12,739 bases of DNA from Tubulinosema ratisbonensis (lineage: Eukaryota > Microsporidia > Tubulinosematidae): NCBI GenBank assembly GCA_004000155.1, contig RCSS01000049.1, forward strand, positions 4,352-17,090, read 5' to 3'. Under the pieces are notes generated by a model, which saw only the letters and a list, made by a program, of their open reading frames with translations, was not told where the DNA came from and made no database searches. The translations under genes were made by a program, and so were the position numbers. Positions 1,180-12,372 of the stretch are shown piece after piece. Position 1 is the first letter of the stretch. Each line of letters opens with the position of its first letter.

Positions 1180-1503
1180 AAATAGAAAAAATTTATTTAT
1201 TTCTTATTTTAAAAATAATTTTATTTATTTCACAAAATAGAAAAAATAAATTTAAATACCTTAAAGAATTAAGATAATAGCATTTAATCTACAAAAAAAT
1301 CAATGATGAAATACTATTTTTAATATTTAAAAAAATTAAAAAAGAAGCTTATTTTTTAAAATATCTTGTAATTTGGTAAATTTCTAATATAAAAGACATA
1401 ATAATTATATGTTTAAATGTAAAAGAATTTTAATTATAATGTAATGTACATGGAATATTATTTAATAATAAGTATTTTAAATTAATTAAGTTATTTAAAT
1501 TTT
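1180..1503. other. AT-rich spacer upstream of RPN5, nothing recognised
   Basis: This stretch contains only stop-rich A/T sequence. It must include the RPN5 promoter, but no clear element can be named. It ends where similarity to the dispersed repeat described at 1504-1700 begins. Confidence 0.5.
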
Positions 1504-1700
1504 CTTTAGAGGACATAGAATTCTATTATTTACAAAATATAATGGTTTTAAAAGTGAAAAGCTTAGTATTTTGTGCTGTACCTAGTTATGTAGAAAAATA
1601 TTTTACCATATGTTTTTTTAATGAAAGCTATATATATTATATATACTAATAATTATAAAAGATCTATCTATTGATTTCTCATCCTTAAACAATAAAAAAA
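1504..1700 (+). repeat. SINE-like retroposon, copy 2 (plus strand, diverged)
   Basis: This block aligns in order with the minus-strand reading of the copy at 2370-2560. Shared pieces include GGTTTTA at 1544-1550, GTGAAAAGCT, GTATTTTG, TACCTA, an 18-base block at 1598-1615 with one mismatch, and a 3' block at 1657-1696 (AAAAGATCT, TGATTTCTCATCC, AAACAATAAAAA). It ends in an A-rich tail of AATAAAAAAA. Most differences are G/C to A/T, as expected for an older copy decaying in an AT-biased genome. The 5' boundary near CTTTAGAGG is approximate and no convincing target-site duplication was found. Confidence 0.75.
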
Positions 1701-1975
1701 GATAATTTAAAAAGTGTACGAAAAAATGTCTAAGAATTATGTTATAAAGACATGATATAAGGAAAAGAATCTTATGCTTTAATCAGATGTGAGAATTTTA
1801 AATCATAGAAAAGTCAATGACTTTTCTTTTAATGGTATAATTTGGGTTACAAAGAAATTGCCAAGTCAATACTTTTATTTAAACACTTTATTCTAAAAGC
1901 TATTAAATATTTTTAGGGATAAATCGGTAAAATAAAATATTTATTTTTGATTGACATCCAATAATTGAGGTAAAA
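1701..1975. other. AT-rich spacer with a 21-bp palindrome
   Basis: No coding potential was seen. The only structure is a perfect 10-bp inverted repeat with a one-base centre at 1807-1827, AGAAAAGTCA / TGACTTTTCT. In RNA it would form an 8-bp stem with a 5-base loop, followed by a T-rich run. Confidence 0.5.
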
Positions 1976-2190
1976 TTTTTATTATTGGTATAAAACAAAG
2001 TAGATTAAGATTTCTAAGTAAATTTTAGACAATATATTTATTAACAATCAGAATCTTTAGTTGACTTTTCATTTTCTATCCTTTAAAATATAAACCAAAT
2101 AAATTATAAAAAAAATTAAATTTACAGATAAAATTTATTATCTCCAGGTAAGAAACCCATCACCAAAAAACATTAAGACAGAACTATCTA
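1976..2190 (-). repeat. SINE-like retroposon, copy 4 (minus strand, badly decayed)
   Basis: Read on the plus strand, this segment matches the 2370-2560 copy in the same order: TTTTTATTATTGG against TTTTTGTTGCC (tail end), TAGATTAAGAT against TAGGAAGATC, ATATTTATTAACAATCAGAA against ATATTTATAACTAGTCGACAGAA, a TTTTCTATCCTTTA block, and most clearly TCTCCAGGTAAGAAACCCA at 2141-2159 against TCACCAGCTAAAACCCA. The 5' end of the element is near 2190. Several indels make the limits approximate, and individual blocks could be chance in AT-rich DNA. The shared order of blocks is the main support. Confidence 0.55.
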
Positions 2191-2356
2191 ATAAATTATT
2201 AATTAAAAATATTTTTTTATCAAAATACCCGTTTTTGAGAAATAAGAAGCAATGGAATGGTAAAGAGAGACTATAATTAATATAAGTTATTATCTATAAA
2301 AATTTTAATTTGAAATTATTGATATCGAAAAAATATTTTATTCAATAAAATTATTA

Positions 2357-2369
2357 CTTTTTTCCCTAC
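2357..2369. repeat. Probable target-site duplication, tail side of SINE-like copy 1
   Basis: The sequence CTTTTTTCCCTAC here resembles CTTTTTTTACCTAC at 2561-2574: 12 of 14 columns are identical, with one substitution and one T-run length difference. The pair brackets the repeat at 2370-2560. Confidence 0.5.
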
Positions 2370-2560
2370 TTTGTTTTTGTTGCCTAGGGATGGGAAATCA
2401 TAGGAAGATCTTTTGATATACCTTCTTTATAAGAATATTTATAACTAGTCGACAGAAACATACGGTAAAATATGTTTCCCATACTTAGGTATATCTCAAG
2501 ATACTGCGAGCCTTTCACCAGCTAAAACCCACCCCGTGCACTCTATTGACTGCCTAAGTG
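2370..2560 (-). repeat. SINE-like retroposon, copy 1 (minus strand, best preserved)
   Basis: This is a 191-base block much richer in G+C than its surroundings. On the minus strand it begins CACTTAGGCAGTC, carries TTTTAGCTGGTGAAAGGC near residue 35-55, and ends CCCTAGGCAACAAAAACAAA, an A-rich tail. The imperfect direct repeats at 2357-2369 and 2561-2574 look like a target-site duplication. No protein frame is open across it. The segment TTTTAGCTGGTG is loosely like a tRNA A box, but no convincing B box follows, so the promoter class is unknown. The RNA could form a GAAACATA/TATGTTTC hairpin (plus 2455-2478). The region 2475-2489 is complementary to 2383-2397 at 13 of 15 positions in the sense RNA. 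Three other segments in this window share its sequence. Confidence 0.78.
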
Positions 2561-2574
2561 CTTTTTTTACCTAC
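2561..2574. repeat. Probable target-site duplication, 5' side of SINE-like copy 1
   Basis: This is the partner of 2357-2369. It includes a T7 run at 2562-2568 that could also be read as a Pol III terminator for plus-strand transcription. The repeat interpretation is preferred because of the matching sequence on the other flank. Confidence 0.5.
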
Positions 2575-3455
2575 GAATGTGGAAAGTGGGTAAAGAAGTT
2601 AAAATTTTAAAATCTTACAGACGTGTAAACAAGTACTGTAGATTCATTTTTGGTACTGAATATAACTATGTTAGGTTTAATAGTCTAGCTGTTATATCTT
2701 ATTTTACCACCAAAAACAATCTAATAAAAAAACTGTAAAAAAAGTTATAATTAATTTTAAAGCAAAAACACAAAAATTATTACATTTTTAAAGTTAAAAG
2801 AAATAAAAACTTATGTAAGATTCTAAAAGAGATTTAAAATTTTAATTAAAAAGAAGTAAGTTAAGTTATAGATCTTTGTATGAAAACTTCATCTCTAAGC
2901 AATTAAAAATGATAAAAAAGAAATTATCGATAATACAGGTAAATGGATAATTTTAAGTGAATTCCTATGCTTAAAAAACTTTAAAGATATGTAATCCTTG
3001 TATTTAATATTTAGTTATCGAATGGTTGTATCATATGTTAAAATTCTATTCTAGTGATAAATTTTTTATTTATAAGATATTTAATAGAAGTGAGAAAACA
3101 AAAGTATAAATAATTTCATGAAAGACTGTTCTTAAGAATCGAAGGTATTTTATTATATAATTATAGGTTGAGAATTATTGCAAAAGTATTGATTTAACAA
3201 ATAAGAAATTCATGAATTTTATTAAGTAACTAAAGTAAAATGTTTATATTTGAAAATTTAGGAAATTTAACTGTCTTTTAAAAATACAATCAAAGTTTTA
3301 GTTTTTTTTTAAATATTTTTAAATCGAATAAAAAAAATGATGAAAAAAAATGTTTATTTCTTTTCTTATTATCTTTGTTTCTAAAAAGAATCAAACATTA
3401 ATTTTAAGAAAATAATTATTTTTATATTTTCTTTTTAACAAAATCACAACTTAAA
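2575..3455. other. Gene-free AT-rich stretch
   Basis: No open frame, tRNA or rRNA was seen on either strand. A short TTCTTA...GAAGGTAT match near 3130-3150 to the SINE-like repeat is too weak to call. The stretch may contain further unrecognisable repeat debris. Confidence 0.5.
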
Positions 3456-3466
3456 AGTCTTATACA
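3456..3466. repeat. 11-bp target-site duplication (left) of SINE-like copy 3
   Basis: AGTCTTATACA is repeated exactly at 3496-3506, immediately flanking the truncated repeat copy and its A tail. Confidence 0.75.
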
Positions 3467-3495
3467 TTCCCATCCCTAGGCAACAAAAAAAAAGA
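3467..3495 (+). repeat. SINE-like retroposon, copy 3 (5'-truncated, A-tailed)
   Basis: The 18 bases TTCCCATCCCTAGGCAAC are identical to the 3' end of copy 1 (plus 2379-2396 in reverse complement). They are followed by A10 and a G. The insert sits exactly between two copies of an 11-bp direct repeat. A 3'-anchored fragment with an A tail and a target-site duplication is what 5'-truncated target-primed reverse transcription leaves. It lies about 50 bases downstream of the stop codon of the gene at 3548-4405. Confidence 0.8.
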
Positions 3496-3506
3496 GTCTT
3501 ATACAA
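3496..3506. repeat. 11-bp target-site duplication (right) of SINE-like copy 3
   Basis: This is an exact copy of AGTCTTATACA at 3456-3466. Confidence 0.75.
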
Positions 3507-3547
3507 AAAAATTATGTTTTATTACTAAACTTNNNAAAGTTACAATA

Positions 3548-4405
3548 TTATTTAATAATAAAATTCCATTCATCATCAATCACACCCATCTCTTTCCAAA
3601 ACATTTTAATTTCCTCTTTCTTAAGCAACAATCCTTCAAAAGATTTAAAACTAACCAATAAAGTAACCTTATTCTCTTCCCCAAACTCAACTTCTATCAT
3701 AGAAAAACAGCTACACAAAAAATATTCTCTATCTTTATGTACAGGTAATTCTATATGAATAAACTCAAATTTATCACAAACATTCTCGCACCAATACAAA
3801 TGAGAGATGATTGTTTTGGTAAAAATGGTAGATGAATGGATTGGTAAATTAGATTTGGGAGAGTAATCCTTTACTTTGTTAAGTAATTCTAAATCCTTTT
3901 TCATAATACCTAGCTGAAAAGAAACATTGGTGTTAATTTTGTTATGAAAATTGGAAATGATTTTTGAGTTTATCTCTTTTTTTAAAATGATTTGTTGTGC
4001 AACGTAATTTAATAGAAAATAACTTATATCTTCGTATAAAGAACAAATAAAAGAGAATATGTCAGTGTATTCTAAATCAGGGTACCAATAATAAGAATCT
4101 TCTTTAAAAGATTTGTTTTCTATAAATTGTATGAAAGAAAAGAATAAATCTTTTCTTTTTACCAAAATGTGACCTATTTTTTTTATCTCTTTTTGAAATT
4201 GTTGAGGTGATTTGAATAAATGATTAAGAAATTTGAGTATTTCTAAAGTGGAGTGATTGGATAAGTCTGGTAAGTCATAAGAAGGTTCTATTAAGTATGG
4301 GATGTAAGAAATTTTCTTTGTTTTTAAACTTTCTTTTAATGCTTGTTTTATTGTTTTACTGTTTAACACTTCATACTTTTTTAATATGTTTAAGTCTTCT
4401 TCCAT
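3548..4405 (-). CDS. Unrecognised 285-residue protein
   Basis: The 286-codon open frame is far too long to be chance in DNA this rich in A+T stop codons, so it is a real gene, but I do not recognise a family. The product is mostly helical-looking and charged (MEEDLNILKKYEVL at the start), with hydrophobic helices near residues 50-66 and 112-145 that also carry charged residues and need not span a membrane. The C-terminal third (about 205-285) looks more like alternating strands: FEFIHIELPV, REYFLCSCFSMIEVEF, KVTLLVSF, ending DDEWNFIIK. No signal peptide or metal-binding motif was seen. The start ATG follows a stop-rich upstream sequence without a CCC triplet, unlike its neighbours. A hexanucleotide microsatellite begins only 19 bases before it. 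It lies 189 bases downstream of the UBA1 stop in the same orientation. Confidence 0.8.
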   Translation of the reverse strand: MEEDLNILKKYEVLNSKTIKQALKESLKTKKISYIPYLIEPSYDLPDLSNHSTLEILKFLNHLFKSPQQFQKEIKKIGHILVKRKDLFFSFIQFIENKSFKEDSYYWYPDLEYTDIFSFICSLYEDISYFLLNYVAQQIILKKEINSKIISNFHNKINTNVSFQLGIMKKDLELLNKVKDYSPKSNLPIHSSTIFTKTIISHLYWCENVCDKFEFIHIELPVHKDREYFLCSCFSMIEVEFGEENKVTLLVSFKSFEGLLLKKEEIKMFWKEMGVIDDEWNFIIK

Positions 4406-4424: not shown

Positions 4425-4501
4425 ATTTTTATTTTTATTTTTATTTTTATTTTTATTTTTATTTTTATTTTTATTTTTATTTTTATTTTTATTTTTATTT
4501 T
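4425..4501. repeat. Hexanucleotide microsatellite (ATTTTT)n, 12.8 copies
   Basis: A occurs exactly every sixth base from 4425 to 4497 with five Ts between, a perfect array. On the minus strand it reads (AAAAAT)n and sits 19 bases before the ATG of the gene at 3548-4405, so it lies within that gene's 5' control region. Arrays of this kind readily change copy number. Confidence 0.95.
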
Positions 4502-7375: not shown

Positions 7376-7839
7376 TTTGTTTATGCAAATTTATATTTTA
7401 AATAAGATTTACCTTGAAATAAAATAAAATTATAAAAAATAATTTTAATAAACATTATGAAGAAATAAAATAAAATTATAGAAAATAATCAAAAAAAAAT
7501 AGTATAATATTAAAAATAATAAAAAATATAATAATAATTTAAAATCAGTAAAAAATAATGTAAGTAATACTACAAAAATAATTTAAAAAATGATAAATAA
7601 ATAATTAAAAAAATGATAAATAAATAATTAAAAAATAAAATAATTTAAAAAAAACAATTTTTTACTCAAAAAAAAATTAAAATAATTAAAAAATAATTTA
7701 AAAAATGATAAATAAATAGTTTAAATAAACAAATAAAAATAATCTAAAAATAAAATAATTTAAAAAAAAAACAATTTTTTACTCAAAACAAAAATTAAAA
7801 TAAATAAAAAATAATTTATAAAAATGAAAAATATAATTT
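7376..7839. repeat. Low-complexity spacer with duplicated blocks
   Basis: This 460-base spacer between casein kinase and UBA1 is almost pure A/T and built of repeats. A 27-base block at 7416-7442 recurs at 7462-7488 with one difference. TGATAAATAAATA occurs at 7591, 7614 and, in near-identical form, 7706. A larger imperfect direct duplication of about 115 bases runs 7578-7692 and 7693-7809, both halves containing CAATTTTTTACTCAAA (7655-7670 and 7772-7787). It must include the UBA1 upstream region. No gene was seen. Confidence 0.75.
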
Positions 7840-8793
7840 TTAATTTTGTAGTGCTAAATTCAAATCTTTAATATAATTCCAATCATACAATCCATCATCT
7901 ATCAAATTTTCTTTAAGAAAAACTCTCTTCATTGCTGTTTTTATGTACAAATAAGAAGGTAATTCATCAAAATTTAGATTTCTTATATAATAAAGCAATT
8001 TAGAGAATACAGGGTGTATTCCCTCACATATTTGGTTTATTGGCATTGTTTCTTTTATTTTTCTAATTTTAGCAAATTTTTCTTGTTTATTTGCACCAGG
8101 CACACCCTGCCAAGGCAATTTTCCTTTTGAAAAATAAATCAAACAATAAACCATACTCTCTAAGTCATCTCTTCTGCTTTGTTCTAAACCTAAGTGACAA
8201 TTTAGTGATGCATATCTGGCTGTACCAGTAAGTGATTTACCTGAGCAACAGGGTATGTGCCAAAAGGTGTCTGGGTTACGGTATAACTTAGCTAAACCAA
8301 AATCAACCACAAACATTCTAGTATATCTCTGTGTACCATCATCAAATACAAAGTTTTCTGGTTTAATATCTCTGTGTATCAATCCTTTAGAGTGAATATA
8401 TTCTATTATGTCTACCATATTCTCTCCTAGTTTTAACACTGTCTTTAAAGAGAATCTGTTACTACAAATCTTAAAAAGAGTCTCTAAAGAAGGACCTAGC
8501 AGATCTAAAATAAGACCATTGGCTCCTTGTTTCTCAAATACCATCGTACCATAACCATAAATATTAGGAATAAATGGTTTATTGTCTTTCTTAAATTCCT
8601 TGTACACTTTATACTCATTTCTAAGCTGTTTTTGGTCCATTTTTCTTTCTATTTTAATGGCTACTTTTCTGCCTGTCTCTTTCTCTACTGCACTGTGTAT
8701 TTCTCCAAATGCTCCACTTGCTATCTTTTTTACTATTACATAATTTTTACTGCTTTTCTTTTCCATTTTGTTGGGGCTATCTTCAAAACTCAT
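7840..8793 (-). CDS. Casein kinase 1 family serine/threonine protein kinase
   Basis: This 317-residue protein is a single CK1-type kinase domain. The glycine loop is IASGAFGEIH (24-33), with ATP-anchoring Lys47 in VAIK. The catalytic loop HRDIKPENF spans 140-148 and DFGLAK 164-169. The CK1 hallmark SLTGTARYAS (187-196) is followed by HLGLEQSRRDD (200-210). The segment GKLPWQG occurs at 224-230. The usual APE motif is absent, as in all CK1. The first glycine of the glycine loop (GSGSFG in most CK1) is alanine here, Ala25, which is tolerated in many kinases. The short C terminus ends ALQN, without the terminal Cys-Cys of the membrane-bound yeast YCK group, so it is closer to the HRR25/CK1-delta group. 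It may act in vesicle traffic or DNA repair. The ATG is preceded by CCCT on the minus strand. Confidence 0.96.
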   Translation of the reverse strand: MSFEDSPNKMEKKSSKNYVIVKKIASGAFGEIHSAVEKETGRKVAIKIERKMDQKQLRNEYKVYKEFKKDNKPFIPNIYGYGTMVFEKQGANGLILDLLGPSLETLFKICSNRFSLKTVLKLGENMVDIIEYIHSKGLIHRDIKPENFVFDDGTQRYTRMFVVDFGLAKLYRNPDTFWHIPCCSGKSLTGTARYASLNCHLGLEQSRRDDLESMVYCLIYFSKGKLPWQGVPGANKQEKFAKIRKIKETMPINQICEGIHPVFSKLLYYIRNLNFDELPSYLYIKTAMKRVFLKENLIDDGLYDWNYIKDLNLALQN

Positions 8794-8794
8794 A

Positions 8795-8797
8795 GGG
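8795..8797 (-). promoter_or_regulatory. CCC-type start-proximal signal of casein kinase 1
   Basis: The minus strand reads ATA-CCC-T-ATG, the same C-triplet arrangement found before UBA1. It supports the start at 8793. Confidence 0.7.
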
Positions 8798-8799
8798 TA

Positions 8800-9510
8800 T
8801 TTTTCTATTTTTTGTTTCAGAATTTTTTAAATGTTACTTTGTAAAAAAATTATTTAAATTTCTAAGAACAGAAATAAATTTTTAAAAATAAAATAATATT
8901 TTGATTGGTTAATTTTAAACTGAAATTTCCTTTATTGACTTATAAATTTAATTGGTAATTGATTTACTTTTGTAAGGTATTATTTAAAAAGTAAATTGAA
9001 TTAGAAATTTTTAAATTTAAATCATAAAAAATCATTTTCCAGGCTTAAAAAATTGTTTTTAAAAAAAATAATTGAAATAAAAAAATATTTTTTTATAAAT
9101 TTAAATTTCGCAAAATTTTTATGGGTTTAATAAATCATTTTTGATTTATTAATCCATTAATAGAAATAAAAAATTAGGATTTTGATTTTACTATGAGATT
9201 TACTTTAATGAATGTAAAATTATTATAGAATATTTTTAATAAACATTTTTAAACTAAGAAATTCTTGAAAAATAACCTTAATATTAATTCATATTTAATT
9301 TAATCATAATAATTAAAATCAATTATTAAGTTTTTTAAAAGTTGTAAATTTTACAAATTAAATATAAATTTTTTTTGAAAAATTTTTAAACTTTTAATAG
9401 AATTGTTTAAAAATATTTCTTTTTCTAAGTTTTCTATTGCTAAATTAAAATAAACAAATATAAAACAAGCATTTTTATGTGGTTAATAAAATATTATTTT
9501 GGTTATTTTT
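8800..9510. other. Gene-free AT-rich stretch upstream of casein kinase 1
   Basis: No open frame, RNA gene or repeat could be supported. Mixed A/T runs only. Confidence 0.5.
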
Positions 9511-9514
9511 ATTC

Positions 9515-9690
9515 TTAGTCGTAACAAAAAGTTTTTTGGGCACTTTGTTGTGTCTTAAAATGGTAAAGGACAGTGTTTTGTGTACTGCTCATGCGCTCGC
9601 ATTAAAGAAAATTATTGTGTAAACCTTTGTCTTTAAGCGGTTTATTTAAGGTTGTTCTGCTTTGTCTGTCTGTTGTGTTTTCCTTCTTCA
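9515..9690. other. Compositional island, G/T-skewed on the plus strand, unassigned
   Basis: The island is visibly richer in G+C than the kilobase on either side and is G/T-rich on the plus strand. It contains short complementary segments: ATGC/GCAT at 9591-9602, CAGT/ACTG around 9571-9587, AAACC/GGTTT at 9620-9642. A 52-codon frame (9464-9622) ends MVKDSVLCTAHALALKK and the rest, but it is short and no family was recognised. It could be a structured RNA gene, a fragment of a mobile element, or a relic gene. Position and composition are observed; function is unknown. Confidence 0.4.
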
Positions 9691-10741
9691 ACTTCATATA
9701 ATTAATTATTTTTTTGATAAACATTTTTTAATTTATTTGACAAGAACTATAAGTTATATGAATATTTTTAGATTTCTGAATATAAATAAGTATAAATTTA
9801 GATATTTTTTAAAAATATATCAAAGTTTTTAATAAAGATGAAAAATTAAACTAAATTTATTTTTTATTATTATTTTTTAGCTGTAATTAATTCTTTCTAA
9901 ATTTTGCTATTCTTTGACTCTTTGCTGAGAGATTTAGAATATTTTAAAAAAAATACACAAAGTTTAGTCGAGACTTTTAATCACGTGACTAAAGATTTGT
10001 CCTGTGTTTATTTGTTCATGTTTAAGTTTTGAAAATGATAGCATATCAGTCATATATTTGATCTTATTTTAATTTAGATTTATGATTACAGTAGTATTTA
10101 AATCAAAAAAACACAACAGAAAATTTAAATATTTTATTTTAAGATAGTTTCTAATATAAAATCTATAAAAAAGTAATAATCCTGTAGATTATTGTAAATT
10201 TAAGGTTTATTCTGCTAAACAATAACCTTATCTTTTAAATTTAATCAAGCTATATTTTATAGAAATTAATACTATCTCAAGTATTAATTTAGTATAAGAT
10301 AGAAGATATTCTTTAGGATGCTTAAAGATATATTTTTAGATAAAACAATATGATACAGATTTTTTATTAAAATTATATCTCACAACAATTTTCATCCTGT
10401 GGTTATATTTTGTTTATTTGGATTATTTATTTAAAATTTTTGGAGCAATTTTTTTCTATTATTGTAATGAAAAGAGTTAAAATATTACCCTAATAAATTC
10501 AAGGCTACAAAATTGTATTATTAATGCAGATATTTAGGTAAATTTAATGAATATGATTTAAATTTGAATAGAATATTACGTATATATTCATGAGTGTATT
10601 AGAATAATTAAAATTAGTTGTATATTTTACTTTTTACAAAGTGTTTCAACATTTAAATAAAATCTTCATATCGTATTACAATATCATCCCAGTTTTACCG
10701 AAATATTATTTATTTAATATCAAAAAATCAAAAACAATTTA
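9691..10741. other. Gene-free AT-rich stretch with one strong hairpin
   Basis: No gene was seen. The clearest structure is TTTAGTC (9963-9969) with GACTAAA (9987-9993), a perfect 7-bp stem around a 17-base loop ending in CACGT. A weaker AAGGTT/AACCTT pair occurs near 10202-10229. Confidence 0.4.
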
Positions 10742-11350
10742 TTAAATAATTTGTTGATTGAATTCTTTAGTAAAACTTAGTTGCTGGTCGCTCATGTATT
10801 TGTCAAGATTGAACAAAATTTCTCCTTCTTTTAAATACACCAAGTATTTACCTTTTTCTTTATCAAAAAAATCAGGTTTATTTTCTAGAATTATCTCAAG
10901 CAAAAACTGATTGATATTCTCAGATTTATGTTTAATCCATTTATTCGGTAAAGATTCTAACAAAGGAACGTCAAAGAAATCTATTGTATTTTCACCATAG
11001 AACATTTTATTTGTTTCAAAAGAAGCATCACTAAATTGATTTTCACCTAATTTAAACTTTTCAAGGAAGAAATCGTCAAAAACAAACAATTTTAAATATA
11101 ATTGATTTTTTATATCTACATAATTTAAAAAAGTCTTTAGGAGTAAATTTGCGATAAACATGCTATTCTCATCAAAATCAAGCAAAAAACAGCAATTTAA
11201 ATAAATAAAAATTCTTGAACTAAATATAAACTTTCTTATCAAACTTGATTTTTTTAAATATAACAATCTTTTTCTTGATGAAGCATAGGTCTCTTTGTTG
11301 ATTTCTGTTCTATAAATCTCAAATATGAAATTATATTTTAACATTGGCAT
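10742..11350 (-). CDS. Unrecognised 202-residue protein
   Basis: The 203-codon open frame is very unlikely by chance in DNA with roughly one stop per eleven random codons, so I treat it as a gene. No family is recognised. The product is rich in Phe, Leu, Lys and Asn. It has a basic segment SSRKRLLYLKKSSLIRK (24-40), a hydrophobic stretch about 41-58 (FIFSSRIFIYLNCCFLLDF), and an acidic C-terminal half. The hydrophobic stretch could be a membrane segment or a buried helix. Two ATGs lie close together, Met1 and Met3; the second is preceded by GCCA and may be the real start. A decayed transposase fragment on the opposite strand begins within a few bases of this start, so the 5' end or promoter may have been rebuilt or lost. 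Expression cannot be judged. Confidence 0.6.
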   Translation of the reverse strand: MPMLKYNFIFEIYRTEINKETYASSRKRLLYLKKSSLIRKFIFSSRIFIYLNCCFLLDFDENSMFIANLLLKTFLNYVDIKNQLYLKLFVFDDFFLEKFKLGENQFSDASFETNKMFYGENTIDFFDVPLLESLPNKWIKHKSENINQFLLEIILENKPDFFDKEKGKYLVYLKEGEILFNLDKYMSDQQLSFTKEFNQQII

Positions 11351-11352
11351 TG

Positions 11353-11800
11353 AAAAACGTTAAAAAAGAAGCTATAATCAACTGCTGGAAACATACTGGA
11401 ATTATAAGTCATAAGAAACTATGAAGCTATAAAATATTTAATCAGACGAAATCAAAAATTTAAATGATTTAATTGAAAAAATTGCGAGTTTGATGAAAAA
11501 ATATCAGCTGAGAAGTATATCAAACTTGAGATCGATGGTCATTTTCATGGAACATTAGAAAATAATGAACTATTAGATTTTGGCTCTCATAATGATGAAA
11601 ATGGTACTTTATTAGAAAAAAAGTCATCTATAGAGCATGAAAATTATAAGTTTGTCACTTTTGAAGAAGCAAAGATTTCCTTTACAATTTTACAAGATTA
11701 TATTTTACAAAGTAATGAAGACTCGATCTATCTTGATATGCTGTACTCTATAAAAGAAAAGCTCATAAATGATTCTAAAAAAATCGTCATCCAAGTTTAG
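11353..11800 (+). pseudogene. pogo/Tigger-type transposase, C-terminal remnant
   Basis: Three successive frames carry adjoining pieces of the C-terminal region of a Tc1/mariner-superfamily pogo (Tigger/Jerky) transposase. The first is KNVKKEAIINCWKHTGII (from 11353), matching the family's I-x-N-C-W-x-H/K-T/A-G-I motif. It ends at a TGA at 11422. The second is SDEIKNLNDLIEKIASL (11442-11492), in another frame. The third runs from 11477 to a TAG at 11798-11800: FDEKISAEKYIKLEID, then an acidic linker, FVTFEEAKISFTILQDYI and a final helix. At least two frameshifts and one stop separate them, so the gene is dead. The DNA-binding N terminus and the catalytic D-D-D core are absent. The preceding sequence is the start of the opposite-strand gene at 10742-11350. 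Confidence 0.8.
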
Positions 11801-11858
11801 ACCGAATTTGAATAGAGAAAATAAAAATCGAAATCAATTAATTTTAAATATTCTATAT

Positions 11859-11924
11859 AAGATCACCCTCTACATAAGGCCAGTTTTTAAAAAACAATCA
11901 TGGCCTTATATGGAGGTTGCACTG
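11859..11924. repeat. Palindromic terminal-repeat pair (66 bp, MITE-like)
   Basis: The segment at 11859-11882 (ending ACATAAGGCCA) and the inverted right end at 11901-11924 match at about 18 of 24 positions, with a perfect 9-bp core ATAAGGCCA/TGGCCTTAT at 11874-11882 and 11901-11909. TA dinucleotides lie at both outer edges. It may be the subterminal palindrome of the pogo end or a minimal non-autonomous copy. Confidence 0.65.
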
Positions 11925-11926
11925 TA

Positions 11927-12372
11927 TTGAAATCAATATTATTACGATATATATCTTGGATGAGGAGTCAATAATTTAAACTTTTTTATGAAAATATGAG
12001 AGTAGATTTAAGCAAAGCATTTAACAATGGTAATTTTTAGATAAATTAGTGGTTACAATAGATAATTTTTTCTTCAAAACTTTAGTTTTTAGTAATAATA
12101 TATTGATTTAGCTAAATTTATATATTAAAAATTTAAGCTATTTATTTGAAAAATTAATTCATTAATTTTTTATTAATTTTGTATGAAATTCTAACCAATG
12201 CAATGAATAATTTTTCTTCTAATCAGTGAATAAATTCTTTATGCATTTTTGAACAAACTTCTAAGAATTTATAAAGAAATTTACGAATAAAGAAAAGTTA
12301 AAAATAAAAGATATCCTCAAAAATAAATTGTAACAAAAATTAAATAAAAATTTTAAAAAGGATACTTTATTT
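11927..12372. other. Gene-free AT-rich stretch
   Basis: No coding frame or RNA gene was seen between the transposon end and the stop codon of the right-edge gene. Confidence 0.5.

Follow-up and report, generated by a model that had tools for sequence, protein, structure and literature searches.

A probable SINE-like retroposon family in the genome of the microsporidian Tubulinosema ratisbonensis

Short interspersed nuclear elements (SINEs) in the strict sense have a head derived from a gene transcribed by RNA polymerase III (pol III), that is a tRNA, 5S or 7SL gene, with A and B boxes. SINEs of the Alu/B1 type are moved by L1, a long interspersed nuclear element (LINE), and show an A tail, 5′ truncation and target-site duplications of variable length. 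The EhSINEs of Entamoeba histolytica are not known to have a tRNA-like head. Microsporidia serve as the textbook example of extremely reduced genomes. Here we describe a short dispersed repeat from the microsporidian Tubulinosema ratisbonensis, detected in a stretch of 12,739 nucleotides (the window; contig RCSS01000049.1, positions 4,352 to 17,090) that an initial annotation had singled out for a SINE-type retroposon.

Among fungal SINEs, MgSINE has about 100 copies and Foxy 160, AfuSINE2 has target-site duplications of 4-14 bp, and dependence on a LINE is the usual case; the AfuSINEs are related to tRNA or 5S RNA, and the tRNA-related ones carry pol III promoter sequences (PMC5063351, in its accessible part). 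In microsporidia, mobile DNA is described as long terminal repeat (LTR), LINE and DNA elements and Helitrons in the accessible parts of the genome papers. The word SINE was absent from the main text, as far as accessible, of PMC4202319, PMC3486916, PMC3749934, PMC7313128, PMC12558613 and PMC13174016, and occurred once in that of PMC3614468, as a row in the repeat table of Nosema bombycis (28,669 bp, 0.18% of the genome). The initial annotation had supposed that SINEs are rarely discussed in microsporidia; in the part of the microsporidian literature examined, they appear in this single row. Among the open-licence papers that our searches listed, none describes a microsporidian SINE family by its title or the start of its abstract; an older account elsewhere, or an entry in Repbase, is possible.

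The repeat resembles AfuSINE2, MgSINE and Foxy as a short fungal retroposon with a comparable copy number and target-site duplications, but differs from the AfuSINEs in that neither a tRNA nor a 5S relation was detectable (PMC5063351, same part). Like EhSINE1 and EhLINE, it is a retroposon of a parasitic protist with target-site duplications; EhLINE has a restriction-like endonuclease according to a title cited in PMC3716655, the accessible part of which we used for both points, whereas the candidate LINE described below is of the APE type. The Nosema bombycis entry is also microsporidian, but in the part of PMC3614468 at hand it is a table row without family, sequence or anatomy. With Alu and B1 the repeat has in common the A tail, the 5′ truncation and the variable duplications, and an L1-like helper is plausible. 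Unlike in Alu and B1, no 7SL similarity was found, though no signal recognition particle (SRP) RNA was recognised in the genome for comparison.

The host assembly has 4.12 Mb in 236 contigs, and the window is part of the contig that we call C13 (contigs and loci are hereafter given our C and L numbers). The ubiquitin-activating enzyme of the genome (924 aa) had its nearest named relative in Astathelohania contejeani (49% identity over 63% of the query); its further relatives were other microsporidia, and one protein without a name was 71% identical. The genome is thus microsporidian, as its type had been read from the window.

We conclude that the repeat probably forms a non-autonomous SINE-like retroposon family of about 200 or more copies, old and young, on both strands. 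Retroposition in trans by a LINE is the best reading of the evidence that follows. The 3′ end of the element (CATCCCTAGGCAACA, at most 2 mismatches) was found at 201 places in the genome, 109 forward and 92 reverse, of which the first 100 were listed; the same pattern read backwards was found at 0. A 31-base stretch that begins one base into the element (at most 3 mismatches) was found at 64 places (control, 0). Genome-wide, 3′ ends are therefore about three times as many as 5′ ends, an excess that 5′ truncation predicts; this comparison is fairer than the ratio in our sample, yet its two patterns and mismatch limits differ. Our sample does not give an unbiased ratio of full-length to truncated copies, because loci were chosen by the 3′-end pattern, by similarity to the window copy, or by protein or RNA families. 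A genome search with the sequence at 2370-2560 gave at least 42 matches, from 40 candidates scored of 244 at first look. When nhmmer was run over 137 fetched loci and the window, 141 hits were obtained in these 138 sequences; 127 were non-redundant with flank, and 114 of these extended to the 3′ end. Exact-pattern scans of prokaryotic and viral contig collections gave 0 matches, to which little weight is given in view of such collections.

The consensus unit consists of 213 nt and an A tail, with CCTGTAACC at its 5′ end and CCCTAGGCAAC followed by A's at its 3′ end. The 5′ end is nearly fixed and the 3′ end fixed, with frequent 5′ truncation. No reading frame is open along the whole consensus, in agreement with the claim that the repeat is non-coding, with the caveat that the first ~44 nt may be the end of a frame in an older, longer form. 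The repeat is accordingly short, dispersed and of high copy number (201 tails, 64 heads), as SINEs are, with their length of about 80-500 bp. In 49 full-length copies, divergence from the consensus ranged from 2.4 to 29% (median, 8%), and the older copies had diagnostic differences in common; the family has therefore been active over a long time, until fairly recently. None of 77 hits lay mostly within an open frame of at least 150 codons, frames that make up 27% of the bases. This does not demonstrate avoidance of such frames, because an insertion would itself break the frame.

A target-site duplication was called where a stretch of at least 9 bp near the 5′ end of the element recurred exactly behind the A tail, and the control was made by swapping tails among copies. 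Such duplications, 9-19 bp long in the family, flanked 36 of the 114 copies extending to the 3′ end (the remaining hits being excluded), compared with 1.5% in the control. At 12 bp or more, the numbers were 20 of 114 and 0.05%. Duplications of at least 9 bp were present in 13 of the 24 best-scoring full-length copies and, among the copies that begin after position 30, in 20 of 59; the start points of truncation were distributed along the element. On contig C22, a 3′ piece of ~25 nt with its A's was nested within another copy, in the head. Because the consensus of the host copy serves as the empty site, the target and its duplicate can be read there by eye (GGTAAGGTAGACT / GGCAAGGTAGACT, one mismatch). 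An A-rich tail, duplications of variable length and 5′ truncation, the marks of target-primed reverse transcription, are thus all present, and so is a nested insertion. A preference for TT/AA targets was also considered but dropped, since calling the longest match beside an A tail partly forces a T/A step.

A short unit in many copies on both strands might also be a miniature inverted-repeat transposable element (MITE) or another DNA transposon. This explanation was ruled out, its probability being close to nil: the element has no terminal inverted repeats (4 of 20 terminal bases match), its duplications are not of a fixed length, its truncation is one-sided and it has an A tail. The initial annotation had named two outcomes that would speak against a retroposon, namely that the genome contains no other copies, or that the copies end in inverted repeats and share a constant target. 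Neither occurred, and its claims of a dispersed family with a common 3′ end, A tails, 5′ truncation and target-site duplications all found support in the genome.

The A runs at the 3′ end of the copies cluster at 7-9. In the sequence examined, repeat tails and overlapping loci included, A/T homopolymer runs longer than 9 are rare (17 of 2,342 runs of at least 6). The run counts were 1293 for length 6, 699 for 7, 217 for 8, 116 for 9, 15 for 10 and 2 for longer runs. This near-sharp stop at 9 may reflect an upper limit in the genome itself or one set by sequencing and assembly. Since longer runs are nearly absent overall, a short A tail as a fixed feature of the family was dropped, and the real tails are perhaps longer than 7-9.

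Within the window, segments were scored by local alignment to the family consensus, and for each of them 300 dinucleotide shuffles served as the control. The initial annotation had assigned four segments to one family. Three of them (1504-1700, 2370-2560 and 3467-3495) scored above their shuffles and belong to it (Table 1). The fourth, 1976-2190, was rejected: it scored 9-10 on either strand, at or below the shuffle mean, and was not among the eight stretches given by nhmmer on the window at E 10.

The smallest window copy is the most telling one. It consists of the last bases of the element and an A tail of nine A's (3485-3493), which are together enclosed by a perfect 11-bp pair of direct repeats. 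The best copy corresponds to consensus positions ~31-213 and is nearest to the young subfamily, with ~30 nt missing at its 5′ end. An A-rich tail at 2370-2378 separates it from its 3′ duplication, and its duplication pair is imperfect (13-14 bp, differing by one mismatch and one indel). Direct repeats flanking two of the copies had been noticed initially; such repeats flank these two copies, both of which are also shortened at the 5′ end. The old copy is nearest to the old subfamily and has an A-rich stretch behind it. The 5′ part of its segment (1504-1700) could not be aligned, and no exact flanking repeat longer than 7 bp was found around 1544-1692.

Table 1. Positions of repeat copies and their duplications in the window, and loci of the long-form head in the genome
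Feature	Position	Strand	Details
Best window copy	2379..2559	-	nhmmer 188.6 bits, E 5.9e-58 on window; alignment score 163, shuffle maximum 15
3′ target-site duplication of best copy	2357..2369	-	minus strand GTAGGGAAAAAAG
5′ target-site duplication of best copy	2561..2574	-	minus strand GTAGGTAAAAAAAG
Old decayed copy	1544..1692	+	nhmmer 34.3 bits, E 8.9e-11 on window; score 62 against old-subfamily consensus, shuffle mean 12.1, maximum 22
Extreme 5′-truncated copy	3467..3484	+	final 18 nt of element (TTCCCATCCCTAGGCAAC); score 18, shuffle maximum 14
Upstream target-site duplication of truncated copy	3456..3466	+	AGTCTTATACA
Downstream target-site duplication of truncated copy	3495..3505	+	AGTCTTATACA
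Long-form head loci	L050/L173 (C52:10210-10368), L093/L174 (C201), L175 (C36), L176 (C2)		
Long-form head loci, rest	C189, C93, C60, C181, C36:13688, C38, C124		

No pol III-derived head with A and B boxes was found in the repeat by Rfam, box patterns, or alignment to tRNA and 5S genes. In 11 loci with copies, the only Rfam match at E ≤10 was to a bacterial small RNA (E 0.09), which is not credible. Three matches in the window at 1400-3600 (E 0.85-2.5) overlapped no copy, and four long-form loci gave a true tRNA in L176 together with a weak antisense match on that tRNA. For A and B boxes, the consensus contained no match better than those in shuffles, whereas the same kind of pattern found an A box in 28 and a B box in 29 of the 30 tRNAs listed. 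When the consensus was aligned to these 30 tRNAs of the genome, 277 of 300 shuffled consensuses aligned as well, and a run with 20 tRNAs agreed. Two of the three listed 5S genes were compared and had no similarity to the consensus. A tRNA or 5S origin was therefore rejected by sequence. For SRP RNA, two models recognised nothing in the genome, and since the fungal one was silent in every control, a divergent 7SL origin is still conceivable. Judged by sequence, "SINE-like" is the right word for a family in which the recognisable pol III head of the strict definition was not found; with this wording the SINE-type retroposon of the initial annotation holds.

A different origin would be a functional RNA gene, or a regulatory repeat, that had become dispersed through segmental duplication or recombination. 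The predicted fold of the consensus was better than that of shuffles (z -3.57 for the young and -2.60 for the old subfamily), with pairings GCCUG..UAGGC and GGGGUGGG/CCCAUCCC that join both ends of the RNA. Double-sided pair changes were found in 32 cells compared with 17.7 in column shuffles, but with slid partners they were found in 24-45 cells, no less frequently, and RNAalifold on 49 copies gave only -2.06 kcal/mol. Covariation in the repeat RNA is weak. The surroundings of the copies also argue against duplication of longer segments: when the 250 nt before each of 60 truncated copies were compared with one another, only 4 weak similarities emerged, and with 1.5 kb there were more, mostly the repeat itself and the long-form head. 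Duplications and tails, moreover, are marks of insertion. An RNA gene spread in this way is thus very improbable, if somewhat less so than a DNA transposon.

An older long form of the element was recognised from 159 bases before CCTG that were common to two copies, L050 and L093. This head was found at 11 places in the genome. In 10 of them it ends at most 6 nt from the start of the repeat. The exception is C60, where head and repeat meet near position 64 of the latter. In the C181 copy, the match to the repeat is weak (score 34). The head starts (GCTCTTGGG) at about the same place in C52, C201 and C60. Upstream of this start, C2 and the end of C36 share ~90 further bases, and C181 and C189 ~20, so the 5′ end of the head is not sharp. 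Short copies have 5′ ends that are ragged by a few bases and fit ...ACTTCCTG, and in 33 of 49 copies the base two positions ahead of CTG is a T (p = 4e-5). We infer that the short-form RNAs may begin, or be cut, near this junction in a long-form source.

Candidates for a LINE helper were sought among 27 matches to RVT_1 in the genome, most of them Ty3/gypsy-like (frames judged by eye). Only one locus, on contig C19 (~8600-12120, minus strand; L019/L029/L090), was seen to have an APE-type endonuclease frame together with two reverse-transcriptase frames. Its endonuclease matched PF03372 (E 4e-5) and PF14529 (E 1e-4) in the protein scan, both below the Pfam cut-off, and PF03372 just above cut-off in the genome scan (24.7 bits); RVT_1 scored 69.5 bits. 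The nearest solved structures were LINE-1 ORF2 and then R2. With an APE endonuclease and a reverse transcriptase of the LINE-1 kind, the element is provisionally classed as an L1-type LINE by best solved-structure match. No target duplication of this LINE could be fixed. Past its last reverse-transcriptase frame by ~0.65 kb, on the same strand, is a stretch like the repeat tail (score 25; maximum 20 in 1,000 shuffles). The reverse transcriptase on C157, a dead fragment, was rejected as a helper; no repeat tail was seen on the same strand, and the copy nearby is on the opposite strand. A link between LINE and repeat is likely.

Several observations weigh against retroposition of an independent unit in trans. 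In eleven of the 24 best-scoring full-length copies, no exact duplication of 9 bp or more was called. The sequence is nearly devoid of A runs longer than 9, which prevents a judgement of tail length, and the T/A step at the start of the duplications is partly a product of maximal calling. The C19 LINE is frameshifted, and a protein search with one of its frames gave only two further fragments, on C157 and C201. Its tail-like stretch could belong to the LINE itself or to a repeat copy that has decayed there. On C201, three decayed C19-like pieces (E 0.003, 1e-7 and 0.01) stand in order and on the same strand ~0.5-1.5 kb before the long copy, which thus follows the last of them by 0.5 kb. On C52 (L173:1502-1702), the head is spanned by an open frame of 67 codons that runs on to a TAG ~44 nt into the repeat. 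In view of these C201 and C52 findings, the unit is perhaps the 3′ end of a LINE.

The last points can be put together in another explanation: the repeat would be the 3′ end, with the last codons and the 3′ untranslated region, of a longer, once autonomous LINE, and the 213-nt copies would be 5′-truncated at a point where copying prefers to stop, or would be a SINE taken from the 3′ end of that LINE. The regular position of the head before the repeat and the tail-like stretch on C19 fit this explanation, and it gains weight from the open frame on C52 and from the LINE pieces ahead of the C201 copy. The frame was open throughout in only 337 of 20,000 mononucleotide shuffles (1.7%), and its peptide is readable in pieces within other long copies. 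By eye, the long-form peptide recalls the RNase H domain of LINEs, which we take as a lead only. In contrast, the C52 peptide had no Pfam match at E 10 (a piece of another copy matched only Interleukin 7, E 0.049), and a PDB search with the long-form peptide gave one chance-level hit (E 0.32). Mismatches between long copies were even over codon positions (99, 92, 95), in a test that is weak, as the 3′-part control was uneven (73, 57, 116). A coding long form was therefore not retained, despite the open frame. C201 and C52 have nothing in common upstream of the head, and C2 and C36 the ~90 nt, which means that the head is no plain extension of LINE code. The CCTG 5′ end is sharp, with duplications directly there in several young copies, and the repeat copy near the C157 LINE fragment is only on the other strand. 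On this balance, an origin as the 3′ end of a LINE seems unlikely, though far less so than an RNA gene.

For the preferred reading, retroposition in trans, we propose the following mechanism. A LINE-encoded endonuclease and reverse transcriptase, acting in trans, would copy an RNA of the unit into DNA at a nick in the chromosome (target-primed reverse transcription). Reverse transcription would begin at the A tail and frequently stop early. The likeliest helper known here would be the L1-like LINE with APE endonuclease on C19, or an intact relative absent from the assembly. The RNA would probably not originate from an internal promoter of the tRNA type; more likely, it comes from a locus such as the older long form, in which additional sequence precedes the unit and would supply a promoter or a processing site near the ...ACTT/CCTG junction.

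A more specific version of this mechanism is tentative, and we consider it rather doubtful as a whole. In it, the family lacks an internal pol III promoter altogether, and its mobile RNA comes from long-form source loci with at least 159 nt upstream. This upstream part would act as an external promoter, or would be cleaved off to leave the ragged ...ACTT/CCTG 5′ end. The founder would be a structured RNA of a kind not recognised here, perhaps divergent and SRP-like, or the 3′ end of a LINE that is now the LINE's own parasite. If so, the family would spread from master loci only, and RNA structure (GCCUG..UAGGC, GGGGUGGG/CCCAUCCC and GCUAUACC/GGUAUAGC) rather than a promoter would define it.

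If the preferred reading is right, trans-mobilised retroposons would persist, and would have been active until fairly recently, in a genome of 4.1 Mb in which few LINE pieces were found. The family would also offer insertion markers for strain phylogeny, and a test case for the survival of a SINE that has no internal promoter.

Other repeats and genes were observed at the same loci and in the window. The 175 bp upstream of the repeat copies in L098 and L126 are 81% alike and are neither repeat nor long-form head, which would make them either another dispersed repeat or a duplication. L059 and L093 have a 208-bp stretch in common, in inverted orientation (86.5%). L156 (C27) and L157 (C2) hold 83-base tRNA genes of identical sequence (one with an N), with an insert 3′ of the anticodon that by eye is like a short intron. 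A 477-aa minus-strand frame in L035 resembles, by eye, a MULE-type transposase with a SWIM zinc finger. In the window, a tandem (TTTTTA)n array at 4427-4500 has long frames on both sides, and AT-rich direct repeats at 7543-7818 have spacings of 23 and 69 bp, with a 115-nt unit present six times, overlapping, at ≥60%. The 317-aa frame at 7840-8793 (minus strand) resembles a protein kinase of the casein-kinase-1 type, as judged by eye from its translation.

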